Shown in pieces: positions 35,041 through 42,755 of a stretch of 64,000 nucleotides of DNA (position 1 is its first letter; the number at the start of each line of letters is the position of its first letter). Both the position numbers and the translations under genes were made by a program. The stretch is from Candidatus Micropelagos thuwalensis (GTDB taxonomy: Bacteria > Pseudomonadota > Alphaproteobacteria > RS24), in NCBI RefSeq assembly GCF_000469155.1, contig NZ_AWXE01000001.1, forward strand, positions 372,001-436,000, in the 5' to 3' direction. A model generated the notes under the pieces. The model saw only the letters and a program-made list of their open reading frames with translations, was not told where the DNA came from and did no database searches.

Positions 35041-35100
35041 CCGGAATTTTTCTATAGATATTGAATACCCTCTCTTTCATCCAATCTGCCTGCTTAAGCG

Positions 35101-35117
35101 TATGTTTCATAAACATA
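35101..35117. promoter_or_regulatory. 17-base palindrome in front of the photolyase gene, possible operator
   Basis: TATGTTT and AAACATA are perfect inverted arms around a CAT centre. They end one base before the phrB Shine-Dalgarno sequence (GGAG at 35119-35122) and 13 bases before its ATG. A binding site for a light- or redox-responsive repressor, or an RNA stem that controls initiation, would fit the position; neither is shown. Confidence 0.4.
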
Positions 35118-35130
35118 TGGAGACTTTTAG

Positions 35131-36546
35131 ATGTCCAAATCAATTATTTATTGGTTTCGTCAAGATCTACGCCTAGCGGATAATCCGGCTCTTTTGCACG
35201 CCTCACAAACAGGTAAACGCATTATCCCCATTTACATTTTTGATCCAAATGACAGACCTATAGGCATGGCAGCATCATGGTGGCGCGAGCAAAGCCTCAT
35301 CAATCTTGGCGCCGAGCTTAAAAAAATTGGGGCTAATTTGAACTTTTATGAAGGTCGTCCGCTTGAGATTTTGCAAAAACTGGCAAGTTTTTATGATGCC
35401 GACGAATTTGTCTGGAGTCGTCAATATGACGGCTACAGTGTTGCGCGGGATAAAGAAATAAAACAGACGTTCAGTGATAAAGGAATTCAATGCGCAAGTT
35501 TCAACGCATCTTTGTTATTTGAGCCATGGTTAATTAAAAACAAATCTGGATCACATTTTAAGGTTTTCTCACCCTTCTGGCGACAATGTATGGCTGAAAA
35601 CCAACCTGACTCTCCATGCCCAAGACCAGCCGAACTACGAGGGCACCCAGACATTGACCCGTTTCAAATTCCTTTGCCAGCGACGCCTTTAGATGAAGAT
35701 GCGGATTTAGTCACGGAGGAATGGACACCCGGAGAATCAGGCGCATATCAGCAATTAGAGAAATTTGTAGAAGAAGGTTTGGCAATTTATGCTGAGTTTC
35801 GAGATTTTCCTGACCGCCTGGCAACGTCTCGATTATCACCTTATTTGCGCTGGGGAGAAATCAGCCCACGCCAAATATGGTCAAAAATTCAATTTGTTAA
35901 ATCACATGAAAGTTTTTCAGAGAAAACAGTTACAAAATTTTTGGCGGAAATTGGATGGCGTGAATTTTCTTATCATCTGATTTTTCACGTCCCTGAAATG
36001 GCGACACAAAACCTGCAACCCTCCTTCAATGATTTTCCTTGGGAGGAAAATGAAAAAGCACTGCAACTATGGAAAGAAGGCAATACAGGCTATCCACTGG
36101 TTGATGCCGGGATGCGGGAACTGCGCCGAACGGGATATATGCACAATCGCGTTCGTATGATTACTGCCAGTTTTTTGATAAAACATTTGATGATTGACTG
36201 GCGTGCTGGGGAAAAATATTTCTGGGATCGCCTCTTGGATGCCTGCCCTGCCAACAATATTGCTGGTTGGCAATGGGTTGCCGGCAGTGGCGCGGATGCT
36301 GCGCCATTCTTCAGAATTTTCAACCCAATTATTCAGGGTGAAAAATTTGATCCAAACGGGAGTTATACAAAGCGTTTCATACCAGAACTCGCCCATTTGG
36401 AGCAGAAACATTTATTTTCCCCATGGAAATCAAAATCGGATAGAGTAGAGTTGGATTTTCAGGAAGGGCAATATCCCGACCCGATTGTCGAACACGAATA
36501 TGCTCGTAATCGCGCTTTGGAAGCCTTTCAGCAAATTCGGCGTTAG
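35131..36546 (+). CDS. phrB: deoxyribodipyrimidine photolyase (class I type)
   Basis: Blue-light-driven FAD enzyme that splits cyclobutane pyrimidine dimers. The 471-residue protein starts YWFRQDLRLADNPALLHAS (antenna-domain signature). The catalytic FAD domain has RLSPYLRWGEISPRQIW, FLAEIGWREFSYHLIF, GYPLVDAGMRELRRTGYMHN, RVRMITASFLIKHL, NNIAGWQWVAGSGADAAPFFRIFNP and the Trp residues expected for electron transfer. A GGAG precedes ATG 35131. It is the first gene of the photo-oxidative cassette, which supports a shared light-stress role. Confidence 0.95.
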   Translation: MSKSIIYWFRQDLRLADNPALLHASQTGKRIIPIYIFDPNDRPIGMAASWWREQSLINLGAELKKIGANLNFYEGRPLEILQKLASFYDADEFVWSRQYDGYSVARDKEIKQTFSDKGIQCASFNASLLFEPWLIKNKSGSHFKVFSPFWRQCMAENQPDSPCPRPAELRGHPDIDPFQIPLPATPLDEDADLVTEEWTPGESGAYQQLEKFVEEGLAIYAEFRDFPDRLATSRLSPYLRWGEISPRQIWSKIQFVKSHESFSEKTVTKFLAEIGWREFSYHLIFHVPEMATQNLQPSFNDFPWEENEKALQLWKEGNTGYPLVDAGMRELRRTGYMHNRVRMITASFLIKHLMIDWRAGEKYFWDRLLDACPANNIAGWQWVAGSGADAAPFFRIFNPIIQGEKFDPNGSYTKRFIPELAHLEQKHLFSPWKSKSDRVELDFQEGQYPDPIVEHEYARNRALEAFQQIRR

Positions 36547-36619: not shown

Positions 36620-37909
36620 GTGAAAATTGCAGTCATAGGTGCTGGCATATCAGGAAATTATGCCGCTTATAAACTTTCTAAAAATCATGAAGTTACCGTT
36701 TTTGAAAAACGCGAACGACTTGGCGGACATAGTGCAACGATAGATGTTGACTATGATGGACAACAAATTGCCGTTGATACAGGCTTTATTGTCTATAATG
36801 AATTAAATTACCCTGGTCTCACGCGTCTGTTTGCTGAATTAGACGTAGAAACAAACCAAAGCAATATGAGCTTTGCCTTCAGTTCAGCATACAACATCAA
36901 GAGTGGCGGACTGGAGTGGTCAGGCGATTCTATGGACACCATATTCGCCCAACGAATGAATTTATTTCGCCCATCTTTTTGGATGATGCTGAAAGAAATT
37001 TTACGATTTAATAAAATTGCCAACAACGGCGATTTAAATACAGACGCACCCGAAAGCCTTGGAAATTGGTTAAAACGCCACAAATTTTCAGAGAGTTTCA
37101 AAAATAACTACCTCATCCCTATGGGGGCTGCAATCTGGTCGACCCCTAGCAGAGCAATGAATGATTTTCCTGCAAAAAGTTTTTTGAATTTTTTCATAAA
37201 CCACAAGCTAACTTATCAAGACCGCCCTGTATGGCGCACTGTTAAAGGCGGTAGCAGAGAATATGTAAAAAAACTTGTTGCTAAGACCTCTGCTGATTTC
37301 AAAGTCAATTCTGAAGTAACCAAAGTAACGCGCCAAGACTCAAAAGTGCAGGTTTACATAAATAATGAGAATGTTTTTGAAACATTTGATGCTGTCATTT
37401 TTGCCGCTCACACTAATCAAACCCTCTCGCTTTTGAATGATGCGGATGCCCAAGAACAAAAAATCTTGTCAGATATTAAATATTTACCAAATCAGGTTTA
37501 TTTGCATCGTGACCGCCGCCTGATGCCAAAACGTGAAAAAGTATGGTCTGCATGGAATTATCTACATGATAAAGATGAGAAAAATAACATAATAGTAACA
37601 GTTAGTTACTGGATGAACCGACTGCAAAACATCAATAAAAAATATCCACTTTTTGTGACCCTAAATCCCCCCGAGCCCCCTGCTTCAGAACTGACATTCG
37701 GATATTTTGAGTATGACCATCCCCAGTTTGACCGCAAAGCCTTTGCAGCTCAATCCAACCTTTCCTCAATTCAAGGAAATCGAAATTCATGGTTTTGTGG
37801 TGCTTGGGCTGGTTTCGGTTTTCACGAAGATGGCTTACAATCTGCACAAAGAATTGTCATAGATATTGAAAGTCGTAACTATGTTGAAACGATAGCAAAT
37901 GCCTCATAA
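36620..37909 (+). CDS. FAD-dependent amine-oxidase-like oxidoreductase of the lipid-modification cassette
   Basis: The 429-residue flavoprotein starts at GTG, with a strong GGAGG five bases upstream. The N-terminal dinucleotide fold is IAVIGAGISGNYAA (residues 3-16), followed by VTVFEKRERLGGHSAT and VDTGFIVYNELNYPGL, and the C-terminal FAD contact WFCGAWAGFGFHEDGLQSA is near residue 390. This branch of the flavin amine oxidases is consistently linked to DUF1365 and cyclopropane-fatty-acid-synthase-like genes. In Rhodobacter, relatives have been tied to desaturation of methylated fatty acids (from memory, ufaD). The 11-base overlap with the next gene points to one operon. Confidence 0.88.
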   Translation: MKIAVIGAGISGNYAAYKLSKNHEVTVFEKRERLGGHSATIDVDYDGQQIAVDTGFIVYNELNYPGLTRLFAELDVETNQSNMSFAFSSAYNIKSGGLEWSGDSMDTIFAQRMNLFRPSFWMMLKEILRFNKIANNGDLNTDAPESLGNWLKRHKFSESFKNNYLIPMGAAIWSTPSRAMNDFPAKSFLNFFINHKLTYQDRPVWRTVKGGSREYVKKLVAKTSADFKVNSEVTKVTRQDSKVQVYINNENVFETFDAVIFAAHTNQTLSLLNDADAQEQKILSDIKYLPNQVYLHRDRRLMPKREKVWSAWNYLHDKDEKNNIIVTVSYWMNRLQNINKKYPLFVTLNPPEPPASELTFGYFEYDHPQFDRKAFAAQSNLSSIQGNRNSWFCGAWAGFGFHEDGLQSAQRIVIDIESRNYVETIANAS

Positions 37910-38678
37910 TGACGTGACAGCCCATTCTTATTCTGCCATTTATCATGGCACGGTCAGACACGCCCGTTACATGCCCAAAAAGCACCGTTTTGCCTATAAG
38001 GTTTTCTCATTACTGCTTGACATTGATCAACTGGAAACTTTATCGAAAAATTTAAAACTATTCTCATTTAACCGTTTTAACATTTTTAGTTTCAGAACAT
38101 CTGACCATGGCGCCAAAGACGGCTCGCCATTGCGCCCCTTTATTGAAAAAATTCTAGATAAAGAAAAAATCAAAGCACCGGATAATATATTGGTGATGTG
38201 CTACCCACGCATCTTTGGATATGTGTTCAACCCGATTACGGTTTATTATTGCCTCGAAAATAATAAAATTTCTGCCATGATTTATGAGGTCAACAATACA
38301 TTCGGTGAGGATCATATTTATGTTGTCCCTCAAACTGATGCCGACCGTCCCGCAAAACATAATCGCAGGAAAAAACTTCATGTTTCGCCGTTTATAGCAA
38401 TGGATGCGGAATATTCGTTTACGACAGATATCCCTGGTGATGAACTTAAAGTAATCATCAGAGAAAAAAGCAATAACGCACCTCTTTTACTCGCAAGCTT
38501 TATCGGTCACCGCGCGGCTTTAAACGACAAAGAACTCCTCAAGGCGTTTTTCCGATATCCATTAATGACGATGAAAATCGTATTTGGTATACATTATGAA
38601 GCCTTGAGACTCATCCTAAAAGGTGTAATCTACATAAAACGTCCATCCAAAGAGACATCTAGAATTACGTATTCATAA
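37899..38678 (+). CDS. DUF1365 family protein
   Basis: A 259-residue DUF1365 protein of unknown biochemistry. Diagnostic segments are YHGTVRHARYMPKKHRFAYK at the start, the MCYPRIFGYVFNPITVYYC block (about residue 105), IYEVNNTFGEDHIYVVP and KKLHVSPFIAMDAEYSF. It is soluble or only peripherally membrane-bound, with no signal peptide. Its ATG lies inside the end of the flavoprotein gene and the CFA-type gene follows 11 bases later, so these three are translationally linked. Family members almost always sit between these two partners, which suggests a shared fatty-acid modification step. Confidence 0.92.
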   Translation: MPHNDVTAHSYSAIYHGTVRHARYMPKKHRFAYKVFSLLLDIDQLETLSKNLKLFSFNRFNIFSFRTSDHGAKDGSPLRPFIEKILDKEKIKAPDNILVMCYPRIFGYVFNPITVYYCLENNKISAMIYEVNNTFGEDHIYVVPQTDADRPAKHNRRKKLHVSPFIAMDAEYSFTTDIPGDELKVIIREKSNNAPLLLASFIGHRAALNDKELLKAFFRYPLMTMKIVFGIHYEALRLILKGVIYIKRPSKETSRITYS

Positions 38679-38689
38679 TAGCTAAACTA

Positions 38690-39922
38690 ATGAATTCCTT
38701 ATCAGATAATATTAATTTAATGCCTTCCAAACGCACTAAAGTCATTGCAAATTTAATGGTTTATCTCCTGAAAAATATTCGCCATGGGACGATAGAAATG
38801 CATTGGCCTGACGGTAAAGTCGAGACCTATCAGGGCAAAGAAAGCATGCACCTTAAAGGCGTCCTGATTGTCCATGATTGGGATCTTTTTAAACAAATTG
38901 TGAGAACCGGTGCGATAGGCTTTGCTGAGGGTTATTTAGCCAATTATTGGTCAACCCCAGATATTTCAGACTTATTAGAAGTCTTAAATTTAAATCTTGA
39001 TGAAATGCAAAGCCATATTGGTAAAAATAAAATTATCAAATTTATGACGCGCCTATCACATATTTTGCGGCCAAATTCCCGATCTGGTTCTAAAAAAAAT
39101 ATCTACGAACATTATGATTTAGGGAATAGTTTCTACGAAAAATGGCTTGATCCGAGCATGACCTATTCATCTGCCATATTTAAAAATAAAAAAAACTCCT
39201 TGGAGACTGCCCAGCACGAAAAATATAAGTCGCTGGCGCAATCGATAGACTTGAAAAAAGAACATCATATCCTTGAGATTGGCTGCGGTTGGGGCGGGTT
39301 TGCGGAATATGCAGCAACTCACATTGGATGCCGCGTGACCGGCTTAACAATCAGTCAAGCGCAATATGACTATGCTTGTGACCGCATACGCAAAAAAGGG
39401 CTGTCAGATAGGGTCAATATCAAATTACAAGATTACAGAGATATACAAGGTGATTTTGATAGGATTGCTTCTATTGAGATGTTTGAAGCCGTAGGAGAAA
39501 AGTATTGGCCTACTTTTTTTACCAAAGTCTCCAGTATCTTAAAACCAGGTGGTAAAGCTGGCCTACAAATCATCACAATTGATGACAAAAAATTCAAAAC
39601 CTACCGAAAAAATGCTGATTTTATTCAAAAATACATATTTCCGGGTGGCATGCTCCCTTCAAAAGATGCTTTGAATGACGAATTCAATAAGGTACATCTC
39701 AAACTTCAAGAAACAGTCGATTTTCGTTTGGATTATGCCGAGACCTTAGCGAGATGGAGGGCCAGGTTTAATGAACAGTGGCATGAAATCAAACTTATGG
39801 GCTTTGACGAACGCTTTAAGCACATGTGGGAATATTATCTTGCTTATTGTGAAGCAGGTTTCAAAACTGGAACAATTGACGTATCACAATTTTATTTGCA
39901 TAAAGCCAAATCTAATCCATAA
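38690..39922 (+). CDS. cyclopropane-fatty-acyl-phospholipid synthase-family methyltransferase
   Basis: SAM-dependent enzyme that adds a methyl or methylene group to an unsaturated acyl chain in membrane phospholipid. The 410-residue protein has the IYEHYDLGNSFYEKWLD block (about residues 138-154) that binds lipid, the SAM motif LEIGCGWGGFAEYAA (195-209) and SIEMFEAVGEKYWPTFF (about 265), then GGMLPSK and RLDYAETLARWRARF. The cassette context favours the CfaA/UfaM-type methylase branch over a plain cyclopropane synthase, but the two cannot be separated by eye. Confidence 0.9.
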   Translation: MNSLSDNINLMPSKRTKVIANLMVYLLKNIRHGTIEMHWPDGKVETYQGKESMHLKGVLIVHDWDLFKQIVRTGAIGFAEGYLANYWSTPDISDLLEVLNLNLDEMQSHIGKNKIIKFMTRLSHILRPNSRSGSKKNIYEHYDLGNSFYEKWLDPSMTYSSAIFKNKKNSLETAQHEKYKSLAQSIDLKKEHHILEIGCGWGGFAEYAATHIGCRVTGLTISQAQYDYACDRIRKKGLSDRVNIKLQDYRDIQGDFDRIASIEMFEAVGEKYWPTFFTKVSSILKPGGKAGLQIITIDDKKFKTYRKNADFIQKYIFPGGMLPSKDALNDEFNKVHLKLQETVDFRLDYAETLARWRARFNEQWHEIKLMGFDERFKHMWEYYLAYCEAGFKTGTIDVSQFYLHKAKSNP

Positions 39923-39991
39923 CGCTCTAAACGGCGTATAACAGTCATACATATAAACCGGCATAGTCAATCTGCGGTTCAGGAGGTCTAA

Positions 39992-40453
39992 ATGTCTACC
40001 GCAGAAACATTAAATAACGATTTTCGTCTGGAAAACTTTTTTGTCGGAGATTTCGTATCAGACGGCATAATTGTAAAGCCCAATGGGAAATTAATCAGGC
40101 GCTTTAAAGTCGAGGGGCAATCAAATTTTAAAAAAGGAACGCTAACCCTCAACGAAAAATTCACTTATGACGATGGCGAAGTTGATAAGCGTGTATGGCA
40201 AATCTTATGTTTGCCGGATGGGTCATACGAAGGTTATACAACCGACCTTGTTGGGCCACCGCCCCGTAACCACCCGACTGAAAACCTTTTTAGTTGGTCT
40301 TACCGCCTGAAATTGCCAGTTAAAAATATCCCCGTAACGTTGCGATTCACGGATATGATGCATTTTCATAATAATGCAATCAGCAATGTGGCAACCATCA
40401 GCAAATTCAGCTTGCCGGTACTAAAAATATTCCAGACATTCAATAAAGTATAA
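39992..40453 (+). CDS. DUF3833 family protein
   Basis: A 153-residue protein with an excellent Shine-Dalgarno sequence (AGGAGGT). The motifs LENFFVGDFVSDGIIVKPNG, RRFKVEG and LTLNEKFTYDDGEVDKRVWQI are the DUF3833 core. Most DUF3833 proteins are lipoproteins; this one has no signal peptide, so it may act in the cytoplasm or its export signal may have been lost. It ends with a TAA directly followed by the reverse-strand stop of the SDR gene. Function is unknown, but it belongs to the photo-oxidative lipid cassette. Confidence 0.85.
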   Translation: MSTAETLNNDFRLENFFVGDFVSDGIIVKPNGKLIRRFKVEGQSNFKKGTLTLNEKFTYDDGEVDKRVWQILCLPDGSYEGYTTDLVGPPPRNHPTENLFSWSYRLKLPVKNIPVTLRFTDMMHFHNNAISNVATISKFSLPVLKIFQTFNKV

Positions 40454-41218
40454 TTAGCGAGAGAGTAACCGCACAAATAATTGGCGTGGTAAAAAGGTCA
40501 GAAGCCTTAGCCAGAACGTAAATCGTTTTGGGAATGTGATGCGCGTATGATTTTTTTCAAGCCCATCTACCATAGCCTTAGCAGCCTTAGTGACATCCAT
40601 TAAAGCAGGCATATGAAAGGTGTTTTTTTGTGTCGCTGGCGTATCAATAAAGCCTGGAGCGACCATATTCACGCTTAAACCATACTTCGCAAGGTCAACA
40701 GCCATGGCCTCCCCCATATTAAGAAGAGCCGCTTTTGTAGAACCATAAGCAGCAGAGGTTGGCAAACCGTTATAGCCCGCCACAGAAGATACCAGCACGA
40801 TTTGACCTTTCTTACGAGCAATCATGAAAGGATATGCTGCGGCAATCATATTGACTGTGCCAGTTAAATTCACATCAAAACTTTCATCAAAAACAGACAC
40901 GTCAAATTCAGGAAAATGCGTCGGTAAATAGATACCCGCATTCGCAATAATCATCGCCAATGAACCAATTTCAGTTTCAATTTTCTGCGCTGTTTGTGAC
41001 ATTCCCTCACGGTCAGTCACATCGCATTCAAAGGCATTAATGTTTTGGTGCAAGGCGGCAATCTTATCGAGTTTTTTACTGCTACGCGCTGATATTGCGA
41101 CCTTCCAGCCCCGTTCAGCCATTTCCATAGCCACAGCCGCACCAATACCCGAACTTGCACCTGATATCCAAACAACCCCGTCAGAAGGCTGCATGGCTGA
41201 TAATTTTCGATTATTCAA
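40454..41218 (-). CDS. short-chain dehydrogenase/reductase
   Basis: NAD(P)-dependent oxidoreductase with a complete active site: GASSGIGAAVA near residue 20, IANAGIY, the catalytic Ser in VSSVAGYNGLP, and Tyr and Lys in AAYGSTKAALL 13 and 17 residues later. The C-terminal 30 residues are hydrophobic and basic (FWLRLLTFLPRQLFVRLLSR), suggesting membrane association. The frame starts at TTG 41218 with AAGGA upstream; ATG 41194 is an alternative without a Shine-Dalgarno sequence. It overlaps the DUF6134-like gene by eight bases. SDRs of this type are regular members of the cassette. Confidence 0.85.
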   Translation of the reverse strand: MNNRKLSAMQPSDGVVWISGASSGIGAAVAMEMAERGWKVAISARSSKKLDKIAALHQNINAFECDVTDREGMSQTAQKIETEIGSLAMIIANAGIYLPTHFPEFDVSVFDESFDVNLTGTVNMIAAAYPFMIARKKGQIVLVSSVAGYNGLPTSAAYGSTKAALLNMGEAMAVDLAKYGLSVNMVAPGFIDTPATQKNTFHMPALMDVTKAAKAMVDGLEKNHTRITFPKRFTFWLRLLTFLPRQLFVRLLSR

Positions 41219-41972
41219 ATGGGTTTTCCTTCAACAAAATATCAGAGGCATAGTGCCATTTCTTTTTTGGAGGGATTTTTTCACTGCTGCATATTTCGTA
41301 TATGGCATCGCGCTTCTTTCTGAAAGCACCACCGACCCATGCTCCTTGGCGAGTGTAATAGGCATCCCCCTTAGCAAAACTATATGTGAGGACATCCTTC
41401 ATCTCACCTAAAACATTAAGCTGTTTAAGCCCTAAAAATGTAGTTTCAACCTCAATAGGGTCGCCATTCTGATGATTGACCAGTTCCTTCTTCGTGAGTG
41501 ACTCGGGGTTCCAAAAAGTTGCAGGCATTAAGGCTTTATCAATGACACCACTAAATTTACTGCCTTCAACAACGAGCCCCTCTTTACGCAAAACACCTTT
41601 TGCAAAGCGCTTTTTATCCTGTTCTTTGGTCTCCGTTATAAAAGCCACCAGCCGCCCATCTTCCCAGTATTCAACTGCATCATGACGGAAATCAGCAACC
41701 TTAATAAAGCCTAGCTTCACAATAATTTCAAAATGGGTTTTAACGACGAGATTATTTCCACCTGGAAAAAACTCCATGTGATGAAAGCCGACGGCATTAC
41801 CTTTATATTTAATAAGAAAAGATTTAGTGCCTTCTGGTGGGACAGCCGCCCGCCAATCCTGTGCAGGATACTCAAAAGCTATTGAGCTACTCTCTGCGTA
41901 AGAAGGAGGTATTAATGATAGCTGAATAAAAGCTAGAGCAAGGATGCTAAGATATAAAATCCTTGAGAACAC
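41211..41972 (-). CDS. exported DUF6134-like protein
   Basis: A 253-residue protein with a Sec signal peptide (hydrophobic LYLSILALAFIQLSLIPPSYA, cleavage near residue 28). The mature part is a single predominantly beta domain resembling the DUF6134 and DUF3108 families, which begin with SFLIKYKGNAVGFHHMEF. I place the start at GTG 41972, which has ACAGG seven bases upstream; TTG 41978 is possible. Either start lies inside the chrR-like gene, giving an overlap of about 26 bases and tight coupling. Members are found beside ChrR and SDR genes in photo-oxidative-stress clusters; the molecular role is unknown. Confidence 0.75.
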   Translation of the reverse strand: MFSRILYLSILALAFIQLSLIPPSYAESSSIAFEYPAQDWRAAVPPEGTKSFLIKYKGNAVGFHHMEFFPGGNNLVVKTHFEIIVKLGFIKVADFRHDAVEYWEDGRLVAFITETKEQDKKRFAKGVLRKEGLVVEGSKFSGVIDKALMPATFWNPESLTKKELVNHQNGDPIEVETTFLGLKQLNVLGEMKDVLTYSFAKGDAYYTRQGAWVGGAFRKKRDAIYEICSSEKIPPKKKWHYASDILLKENPFE

Positions 41973-42609
41973 GCCCAAACCTGTCTTTAAATTTTAATGA
42001 GCCAGACGTGACGGCTAAACATAAGCATACTTCGTCACCTACGGCCTTTGGACGGTGTTCTACCTTACCATCAGCGATTGCGAGATCACCTCGGCTGTAA
42101 ATTTCGCCACCATCAATAAATGCACCTCTCAGCACAAGCGTGGCCTCAATGCCTTCATGCGCGTGACGCGGTGCAGATTTACCAGGCTGTATTCTTAAGA
42201 GACGAATATCGCTGGAAGACTCTGCGGCTTTAATTTTTGATGATTTAACACCAGGATAAGAGAAAGACCATTTTAGATCATCGACATCTGAAGACAAAGC
42301 GCGACGAAGAGGTAATGGCAAATCTATATCTGAACAAGAAACGATTTCATCAACTGGTTCTGGTTCTTCGGCAACCAACTCAACGATAGTGTCATTGTCA
42401 AGCATATCCATAAGTGAATGAACACTATCTTCAGACATTCCCACTGGATCTTCACTATCAATAAATGAAGCATTGAGGTTATCAGCGAAATCAAGTTTTT
42501 TGCGTGCTTCAGGCTCCAGTGTCAGATAACTGGCGACAAGAATACTCATCGGCGCATCAAGAGTGCCTGCCGAATATTGTAGTAATAATGTGTCTATGTC
42601 TGCTGACAT
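41947..42609 (-). CDS. ChrR-like cupin protein with degenerate anti-sigma zinc site
   Basis: The 220-residue protein matches ChrR along its length. The N-terminal helical part (LLLQYSAGTLDAPMSILVAS) aligns with the zinc-binding anti-sigma domain, and the C-terminal cupin (about 115-215) has RHAHEGIEATLVLRG. All four zinc ligands of the anti-sigma domain are replaced: the HxxxCxxC motif reads Y28-xxx-E32-xx-A35, and the early His is gone. The cupin metal ligands H149, H151, E155 and H185 are intact. No ECF sigma gene is adjacent; the upstream neighbour is divergent cysK. It could be a cupin sensor without sigma-factor control, or a diverged anti-sigma factor acting on a distant sigma factor. 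Confidence 0.82.
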   Translation of the reverse strand: MSADIDTLLLQYSAGTLDAPMSILVASYLTLEPEARKKLDFADNLNASFIDSEDPVGMSEDSVHSLMDMLDNDTIVELVAEEPEPVDEIVSCSDIDLPLPLRRALSSDVDDLKWSFSYPGVKSSKIKAAESSSDIRLLRIQPGKSAPRHAHEGIEATLVLRGAFIDGGEIYSRGDLAIADGKVEHRPKAVGDEVCLCLAVTSGSLKFKDRFGRVLKDFIS

Positions 42610-42755
42610 TTAAAAATCCGAGTTAAGTACACGTTTCAAATAATAACTTTAATACGATATATATTTCATTTTGGTTCACAGACAAACTTAAAAGATGAGC
42701 TCTTGCGTGTTTATTCCAGTCCCATTAAGTAAAAAAGGATGAAGGAGACCCAAAA

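Follow-up and report, generated by a model that had tools for sequence, protein, structure and literature searches.

We found that the ChrR-family protein encoded in the window (the whole 64,000-nucleotide stretch of DNA that was analysed) lacks all four zinc ligands in its anti-sigma domain (ASD), and we consider that this protein is very probably a zinc-free ChrR anti-sigma factor for an RpoE encoded elsewhere in the genome, sensing through its cupin domain. The chrR gene and the neighbouring genes of the window are as follows:

35131..36546, + strand: photolyase/cryptochrome-like gene, first gene of the photo-oxidative cassette (named from sequence; synteny kept)
36620..37909, + strand: FAD-dependent amine-oxidase-like gene (named from sequence; synteny in the family)
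37899..38678, + strand: DUF1365-like gene (named from sequence; synteny in the family)
38690..39922, + strand: cyclopropane-fatty-acid-synthase-like methyltransferase gene (profile match)
39992..40453, + strand: DUF3833 gene (profile match)
40454..41218, − strand: short-chain dehydrogenase (SDR) gene, third gene of the chrR operon
41211..41978, − strand: DUF6134 protein gene, overlapping chrR at the end of the latter; the product has a signal-peptide-like N-terminus
41947..42609, − strand: chrR, encoding a ChrR-family putative anti-sigma factor without zinc ligands (open reading frame, 220 aa; TIGR02451); predicted domains: ASD, residues ~1-75; linker, ~73-95; cupin, ~96-208

The ChrR protein and its lost zinc site

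The chrR product matched the TIGR02451 anti_sig_ChrR profile over residues 6-218 with 158.5 bits (cut-off 124.5) and also matched the Pfam ChrR cupin domain, which places it in the ChrR family, as an earlier note on this DNA had proposed from the letters of the sequence. The cupin metal ligands H149, H151, E155 and H185, which the note had described as kept, were invariant across the window's family, as is usual for a ChrR cupin. An AlphaFold model of the protein (mean pLDDT 76.6, with the ASD blocks at 78-92) predicted four ASD helices (residues 3-14, 19-31, 33-52 and 60-72) followed by a cupin barrel, that is, the four-helix bundle and cupin domain of the ChrR family. Superposition of both domains on ChrR bound to sigma-E (2Q1Z chain B) gave a VIA-align Z of 23.0 and 3.1 Å over 181 residues, and Foldseek agreed.

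In order to locate the zinc site, the family profile was aligned to Rhodobacter sphaeroides ChrR (2Z2S chain B), and from residue 9 onward the alignment was ungapped near the motif (THLSLCDECR in R. sphaeroides ChrR, SYLTLEPEAR in the window's protein). The ligands His31, Cys35 and Cys38 correspond to Tyr28, Glu32 and Ala35, and the position of His6 falls on Ala3 or a neighbouring residue, which is not a His. Residues 1-80 of the window's ChrR contain no Cys and a single His (H64), distant from the motif. Since the ASD is free of Cys, has one distant His and aligns to 2Z2S without a gap, the zinc site was lost rather than shifted; the loss of all four ligands claimed in the earlier note therefore stands, and a shifted site, which the note had raised against its own reading, was rejected. 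The motif H-x24/25-H-x3-C-x2-C of the zinc-binding anti-sigma (ZAS) factors is thus absent (A3, Y28, E32, A35), and the protein falls outside that group.

The DUF6134 gene is likely to be in the same operon as chrR. Its overlap with the end of chrR was seen in most of the family, with identities between genera of just 23-29%, and it encodes a fast-evolving product of the chrR operon that is probably exported.

Zinc-less ChrRs within and beyond the PS1 clade

A scan of named genomes identified the window's family as the marine PS1 clade, which includes IMCC14465, and chrR was present in 24/28 species genomes of this family. The ligands were missing from 23/23 recovered family ASDs (the window and 22 relatives in several genera, IMCC14465 among them), with Y/F at the position of His31, S/E at Cys35 and A at Cys38. 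In a tree of 133 aligned alphaproteobacterial ChrRs, all ChrRs of the family fell together to the same side of a branch with an SH-aLRT support of 99, indicating that ligand loss defines a clade for the window's family, a check that the earlier note had suggested. The gene order was also kept, with photolyase, FAD protein, DUF1365 and cyclopropane-type synthase, then SDR, DUF6134 and chrR, and then a divergent cysK. Two genomes, 79% (G006) and 69% (G009) complete, were without chrR, the ECF11 sigma gene and rpoHII, a pattern that fits joint loss of the three, although both genomes are incomplete. True loss of chrR in two others (G002 and G013) was considered and set aside; an assembly gap is more likely, because the cysK orthologue next door was missing as well.

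Within the window's genus, the dN/dS of the ASD was ~0.06, a rough estimate given saturated dS (> 1), which indicates purifying selection, and at matched cupin divergence the family ASD diverged no faster than the ASDs of canonical sigma-linked ChrRs. These two results, together with the clade-wide loss and the conserved synteny, argue that the family ASD is not decaying. The lost ligands are all that speaks for the view that this chrR is a paralogue in decay or a product of misassembly. That view is refuted by the family comparison, in which the identical loss recurs across genera under the constraint just described, and by a single-copy gene with an intact frame in conserved synteny; we give it practically no credence. 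The earlier note had allowed that a canonical ChrR/RpoE pair elsewhere might expose this copy as such a paralogue, but no second ChrR was found in the window's genome (99.4% complete).

The similarity of the family ASD to canonical ASDs was 28.6%, and that of canonical ASDs to each other 38.2%, while the corresponding values for the cupin domain were 39.6% and 40.5%. That the ASD is further from the canonical form than the cupin is favours another explanation, in which ChrR has lost control of its sigma factor, the cupin works on its own as a sensor or an enzyme, and the ECF11 sigma is governed at the level of transcription or in some other way. Against this explanation, residues Y12, G15, L17, A26, L31 and R36 of the ASD are kept, its four-helix fold is confidently predicted, and the selection and divergence results above show a constrained domain.

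Zinc-less ChrRs outside the family bear on the same question. Among the 133 ChrRs, 82 had the full H-C-C motif, 6 had one Cys and 45 had neither Cys (20 of them in the PS1 family), proportions that do not equal population frequencies because the sample was enriched for weak profile scores. The tree needed at least 13 state changes in the zinc motif, four of them forced by strongly supported branches, and zinc-less ChrRs are recurrent in Alphaproteobacteria, in many lineages. Outside the PS1 family, 20/25 zinc-less ChrRs directly adjoin an ECF11 sigma gene, which indicates that zinc loss does not imply loss of the sigma partner or of sigma control and counts against the loss of control set out above. 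The ECF11 promoter motif preceded 11/20 of the sigma genes beside these zinc-less ChrRs, compared to 50/76 of the canonical pairs. An association between zinc loss and unlinking from the sigma gene received no support from the 5 usable independent pairs, in which there was almost no co-variation. Previous studies had already found ~5-8% of soluble ASD proteins to be without the zinc motif (PMC2893595, PMC6432622); a zinc-less ChrR clade with an intact regulon was not found in the literature that we searched, and an earlier mention in Campbell 2007 (PMC2390684) is possible. As a side observation, one sigma-linked zinc-less lineage (loci L157, L158, L165 and L204) has Lys-x3-Asp exactly at the place of the zinc-binding His-x3-Cys, and it is tempting to speculate that a salt bridge replaces the metal there.

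An orphan ECF11-type sigma factor and its predicted regulon

As the earlier note had stated for the window, no ECF sigma gene stands beside chrR, whose upstream gene is the divergent cysK, and the chrR loci across the family, which extend to as much as 17 kb, likewise contained no sigma gene. The genome of the window has two ECF-type sigma genes, on contigs C4 and C3, and a second RpoH-type sigma gene on contig C5:

C4:456686-457354: ECF11-type sigma gene (RpoE/sigma-E), standing alone
L082:3562-5187 (contig C3): second ECF sigma gene, with two small genes downstream
L085:4771-5670 (contig C5:62770-63669): rpoHII-like, second RpoH-type sigma gene

Compared to solved structures, the C4 sigma matched R. 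sphaeroides RpoE (2Q1Z) best, with 172 bits against 82 bits for the next sigma, and it nests among chrR-linked sigmas, so that an ECF11 sigma is encoded in this genome. It lies on a different contig from chrR, and the adjacent, co-transcribed arrangement of an ECF11 sigma/anti-sigma pair is absent. No anti-sigma candidate was found among the neighbours of the C4 sigma gene. The genome-wide check for ECF11-type sigmas and further ChrRs, proposed in the earlier note, thus returned one orphan ECF11 sigma and no other ChrR.

The presence of the C3 ECF sigma and of RpoHII in the same genome raises the question of whether ChrR is the anti-sigma factor for one of these instead. However, the C3 ECF sigma is 33% identical to the C4 sigma and not ECF11-like, and it has two downstream genes of its own, while an ECF11-like motif precedes chrR and the cassette. 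We know of no RpoH that is bound by a ChrR, and we regard a different sigma partner as very improbable. The two genes downstream of the C3 ECF sigma encode uncharacterised proteins of 156 and 181 aa, each with a hydrophobic segment; neither had an NCBIfam match, and they are possibly the regulators of that sigma, an unannotated anti-sigma/sensor pair.

To define the promoter motif, we examined adjacent sigma-chrR loci of other families, in which [AT]CC-N16-CGTA preceded the sigma gene in 63/102 distinct loci (66/106 with duplicates), while other spacers in these 106 loci gave 1-10. In the PS1 clade the same motif was found before chrR in 18/22 loci and before the photolyase operon in 10/16, with hardly any sites at a spacer other than 16; four loci of genus g3 showed no recognisable ECF11 motif before chrR. 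Within the window, NA[AT]CC-N16-CGTA occurs at three sites only:

35078..35102, + strand: predicted ECF11-type promoter of the photolyase operon (motif scan)
39914..39938, + strand: predicted ECF11-type promoter of the DUF3833 gene (spacer 16)
42653..42677, − strand: predicted ECF11-type promoter of chrR, (GT)GAACC-N16-CGTA (spacer 16)

The site before the DUF3833 gene was present in 4/4 loci of the genus with the gene, which suggests that DUF3833 is in the RpoE regulon. A whole-genome motif scan also brought up a site before rpoHII, where GTGA[AT]CC-N16-CGTA begins ~43-46 bases before the start in 23/24 family genomes, the exception being a truncated contig; rpoHII is a known target of RpoE (PMC6852236). 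The exact sequence GTGAACC-N16-CGTA has 4 sites in the 1.96 Mb genome, of which two are those of chrR and rpoHII. Since the loose ECF11 pattern was not enriched genome-wide (34 matches compared to 66 for the control), evidence was taken from conserved sites only. A genome scan with the R. sphaeroides-style TGATCC-N18-TA gave only background-like matches and was discarded, the family having TGAACC/NATCC instead.

The conserved predicted sites at chrR, the photolyase operon and rpoHII place chrR within a working-looking ECF11 regulon, of which it would be a feedback member. The motif was absent before the C4 sigma gene, so that this gene, in contrast to the classic rpoE-chrR operon, no longer appears to be autoregulated. 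The motif-less sigma gene, together with a chrR that is unlinked from the sigma gene throughout the family, again favours a ChrR that has lost sigma control, but chrR itself keeps an ECF11-type promoter. On balance we consider that loss of control unlikely.

Of the two readings offered in the earlier note, the zinc-free anti-sigma factor is accordingly the one that stands, supported by the orphan ECF11 sigma, the promoters at chrR, photolyase and rpoHII, and the usual linkage of zinc-less ChrRs to a sigma gene; the cupin sensor without sigma control is disfavoured by the predicted fold, the purifying selection and an ASD divergence like that of canonical linked ChrRs. Counting against the zinc-free anti-sigma factor are the lower similarity of its ASD to canonical ASDs, the motif-less g3 loci and the need for ASD zinc in R. 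sphaeroides. On this last point, a passage of PMC6852236, citing Newman 2001, reports that R. sphaeroides ChrR needs zinc binding by the ASD to inhibit sigma-E and that single alanine changes at its zinc ligands matter.

A candidate mechanism and known systems

For a zinc-free ChrR anti-sigma factor, we infer the following sequence of events. The four-helix bundle of the ASD would be held by protein packing alone, as in Escherichia coli RseA, whose bundle is described as held by protein contacts and not by zinc in a passage of PMC6852236 citing Campbell 2007, and the zinc-free ASD would still hold the unlinked C4 sigma. Under photo-oxidative stress, the metal-binding cupin would be the sole metal site left for sensing, and ChrR would be inactivated or degraded by regulated proteolysis. 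The freed RpoE would then transcribe the photolyase/fatty-acid cassette together with rpoHII, and also chrR, whose induction would lead to new anti-sigma synthesis and so close a negative feedback loop.

The closest known system is R. sphaeroides ChrR/sigma-E (RpoE) of the ECF11 group (2Q1Z, 2Z2S), with which the PS1 proteins share the two-domain architecture, the predicted whole-length fold, the cupin ligands, an ECF11 sigma, an ECF11-like promoter, and photolyase, cyclopropane-type fatty acid and rpoHII targets; in R. sphaeroides, rpoHII, a photolyase gene and fatty-acid genes are under the control of RpoE (PMC6852236, PMC7074977). The PS1 ChrR differs in lacking the ASD zinc ligands and in its unlinked gene, and the PS1 sigma gene in lacking the ECF11 motif. 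RseA shares a zinc-free ASD helical bundle (predicted for PS1) but sits in the membrane, lacks a cupin domain and has a different sigma as its partner. The ZAS factors RsrA, RslA and MseR resemble the PS1 ChrR in having an ASD that binds an ECF sigma, as the PS1 ASD would do, but they need or use an HxxxCxxC zinc site that the PS1 protein does not have.

One paper describes the function of the ASD zinc in the response to singlet oxygen as unknown (PMC6852236); oxidation of the ASD zinc site has been proposed as the sensing event (PMC6432622), and the cupin domain has been named as the sensor (PMC4960319). We see an even chance that zinc-free ChrRs are fully working and still sense singlet oxygen, and that the split of the PS1 operon turned an autoregulated system into one with negative feedback only. 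If so, the ASD zinc, a proposed singlet-oxygen sensor, would be dispensable both for holding the sigma and for sensing. Natural ChrRs without the zinc site, in a circuit apparently otherwise in place, offer a direct test of the role of the ASD zinc, and ChrR homologues should not be annotated as zinc-dependent by default.

In outgroups, the order FAD-DUF1365-(CFA) is common beside rpoE-chrR, so the simplest history would be that rpoE departed from the block and chrR remained.

A separate genome (G068) has two ChrR copies (L074 on contig C9 and L075 on contig C10), both with zinc ligands; one adjoins a sigma gene, and the other is unlinked, with photolyase and cysK genes close by, an arrangement like that of the PS1 clade.
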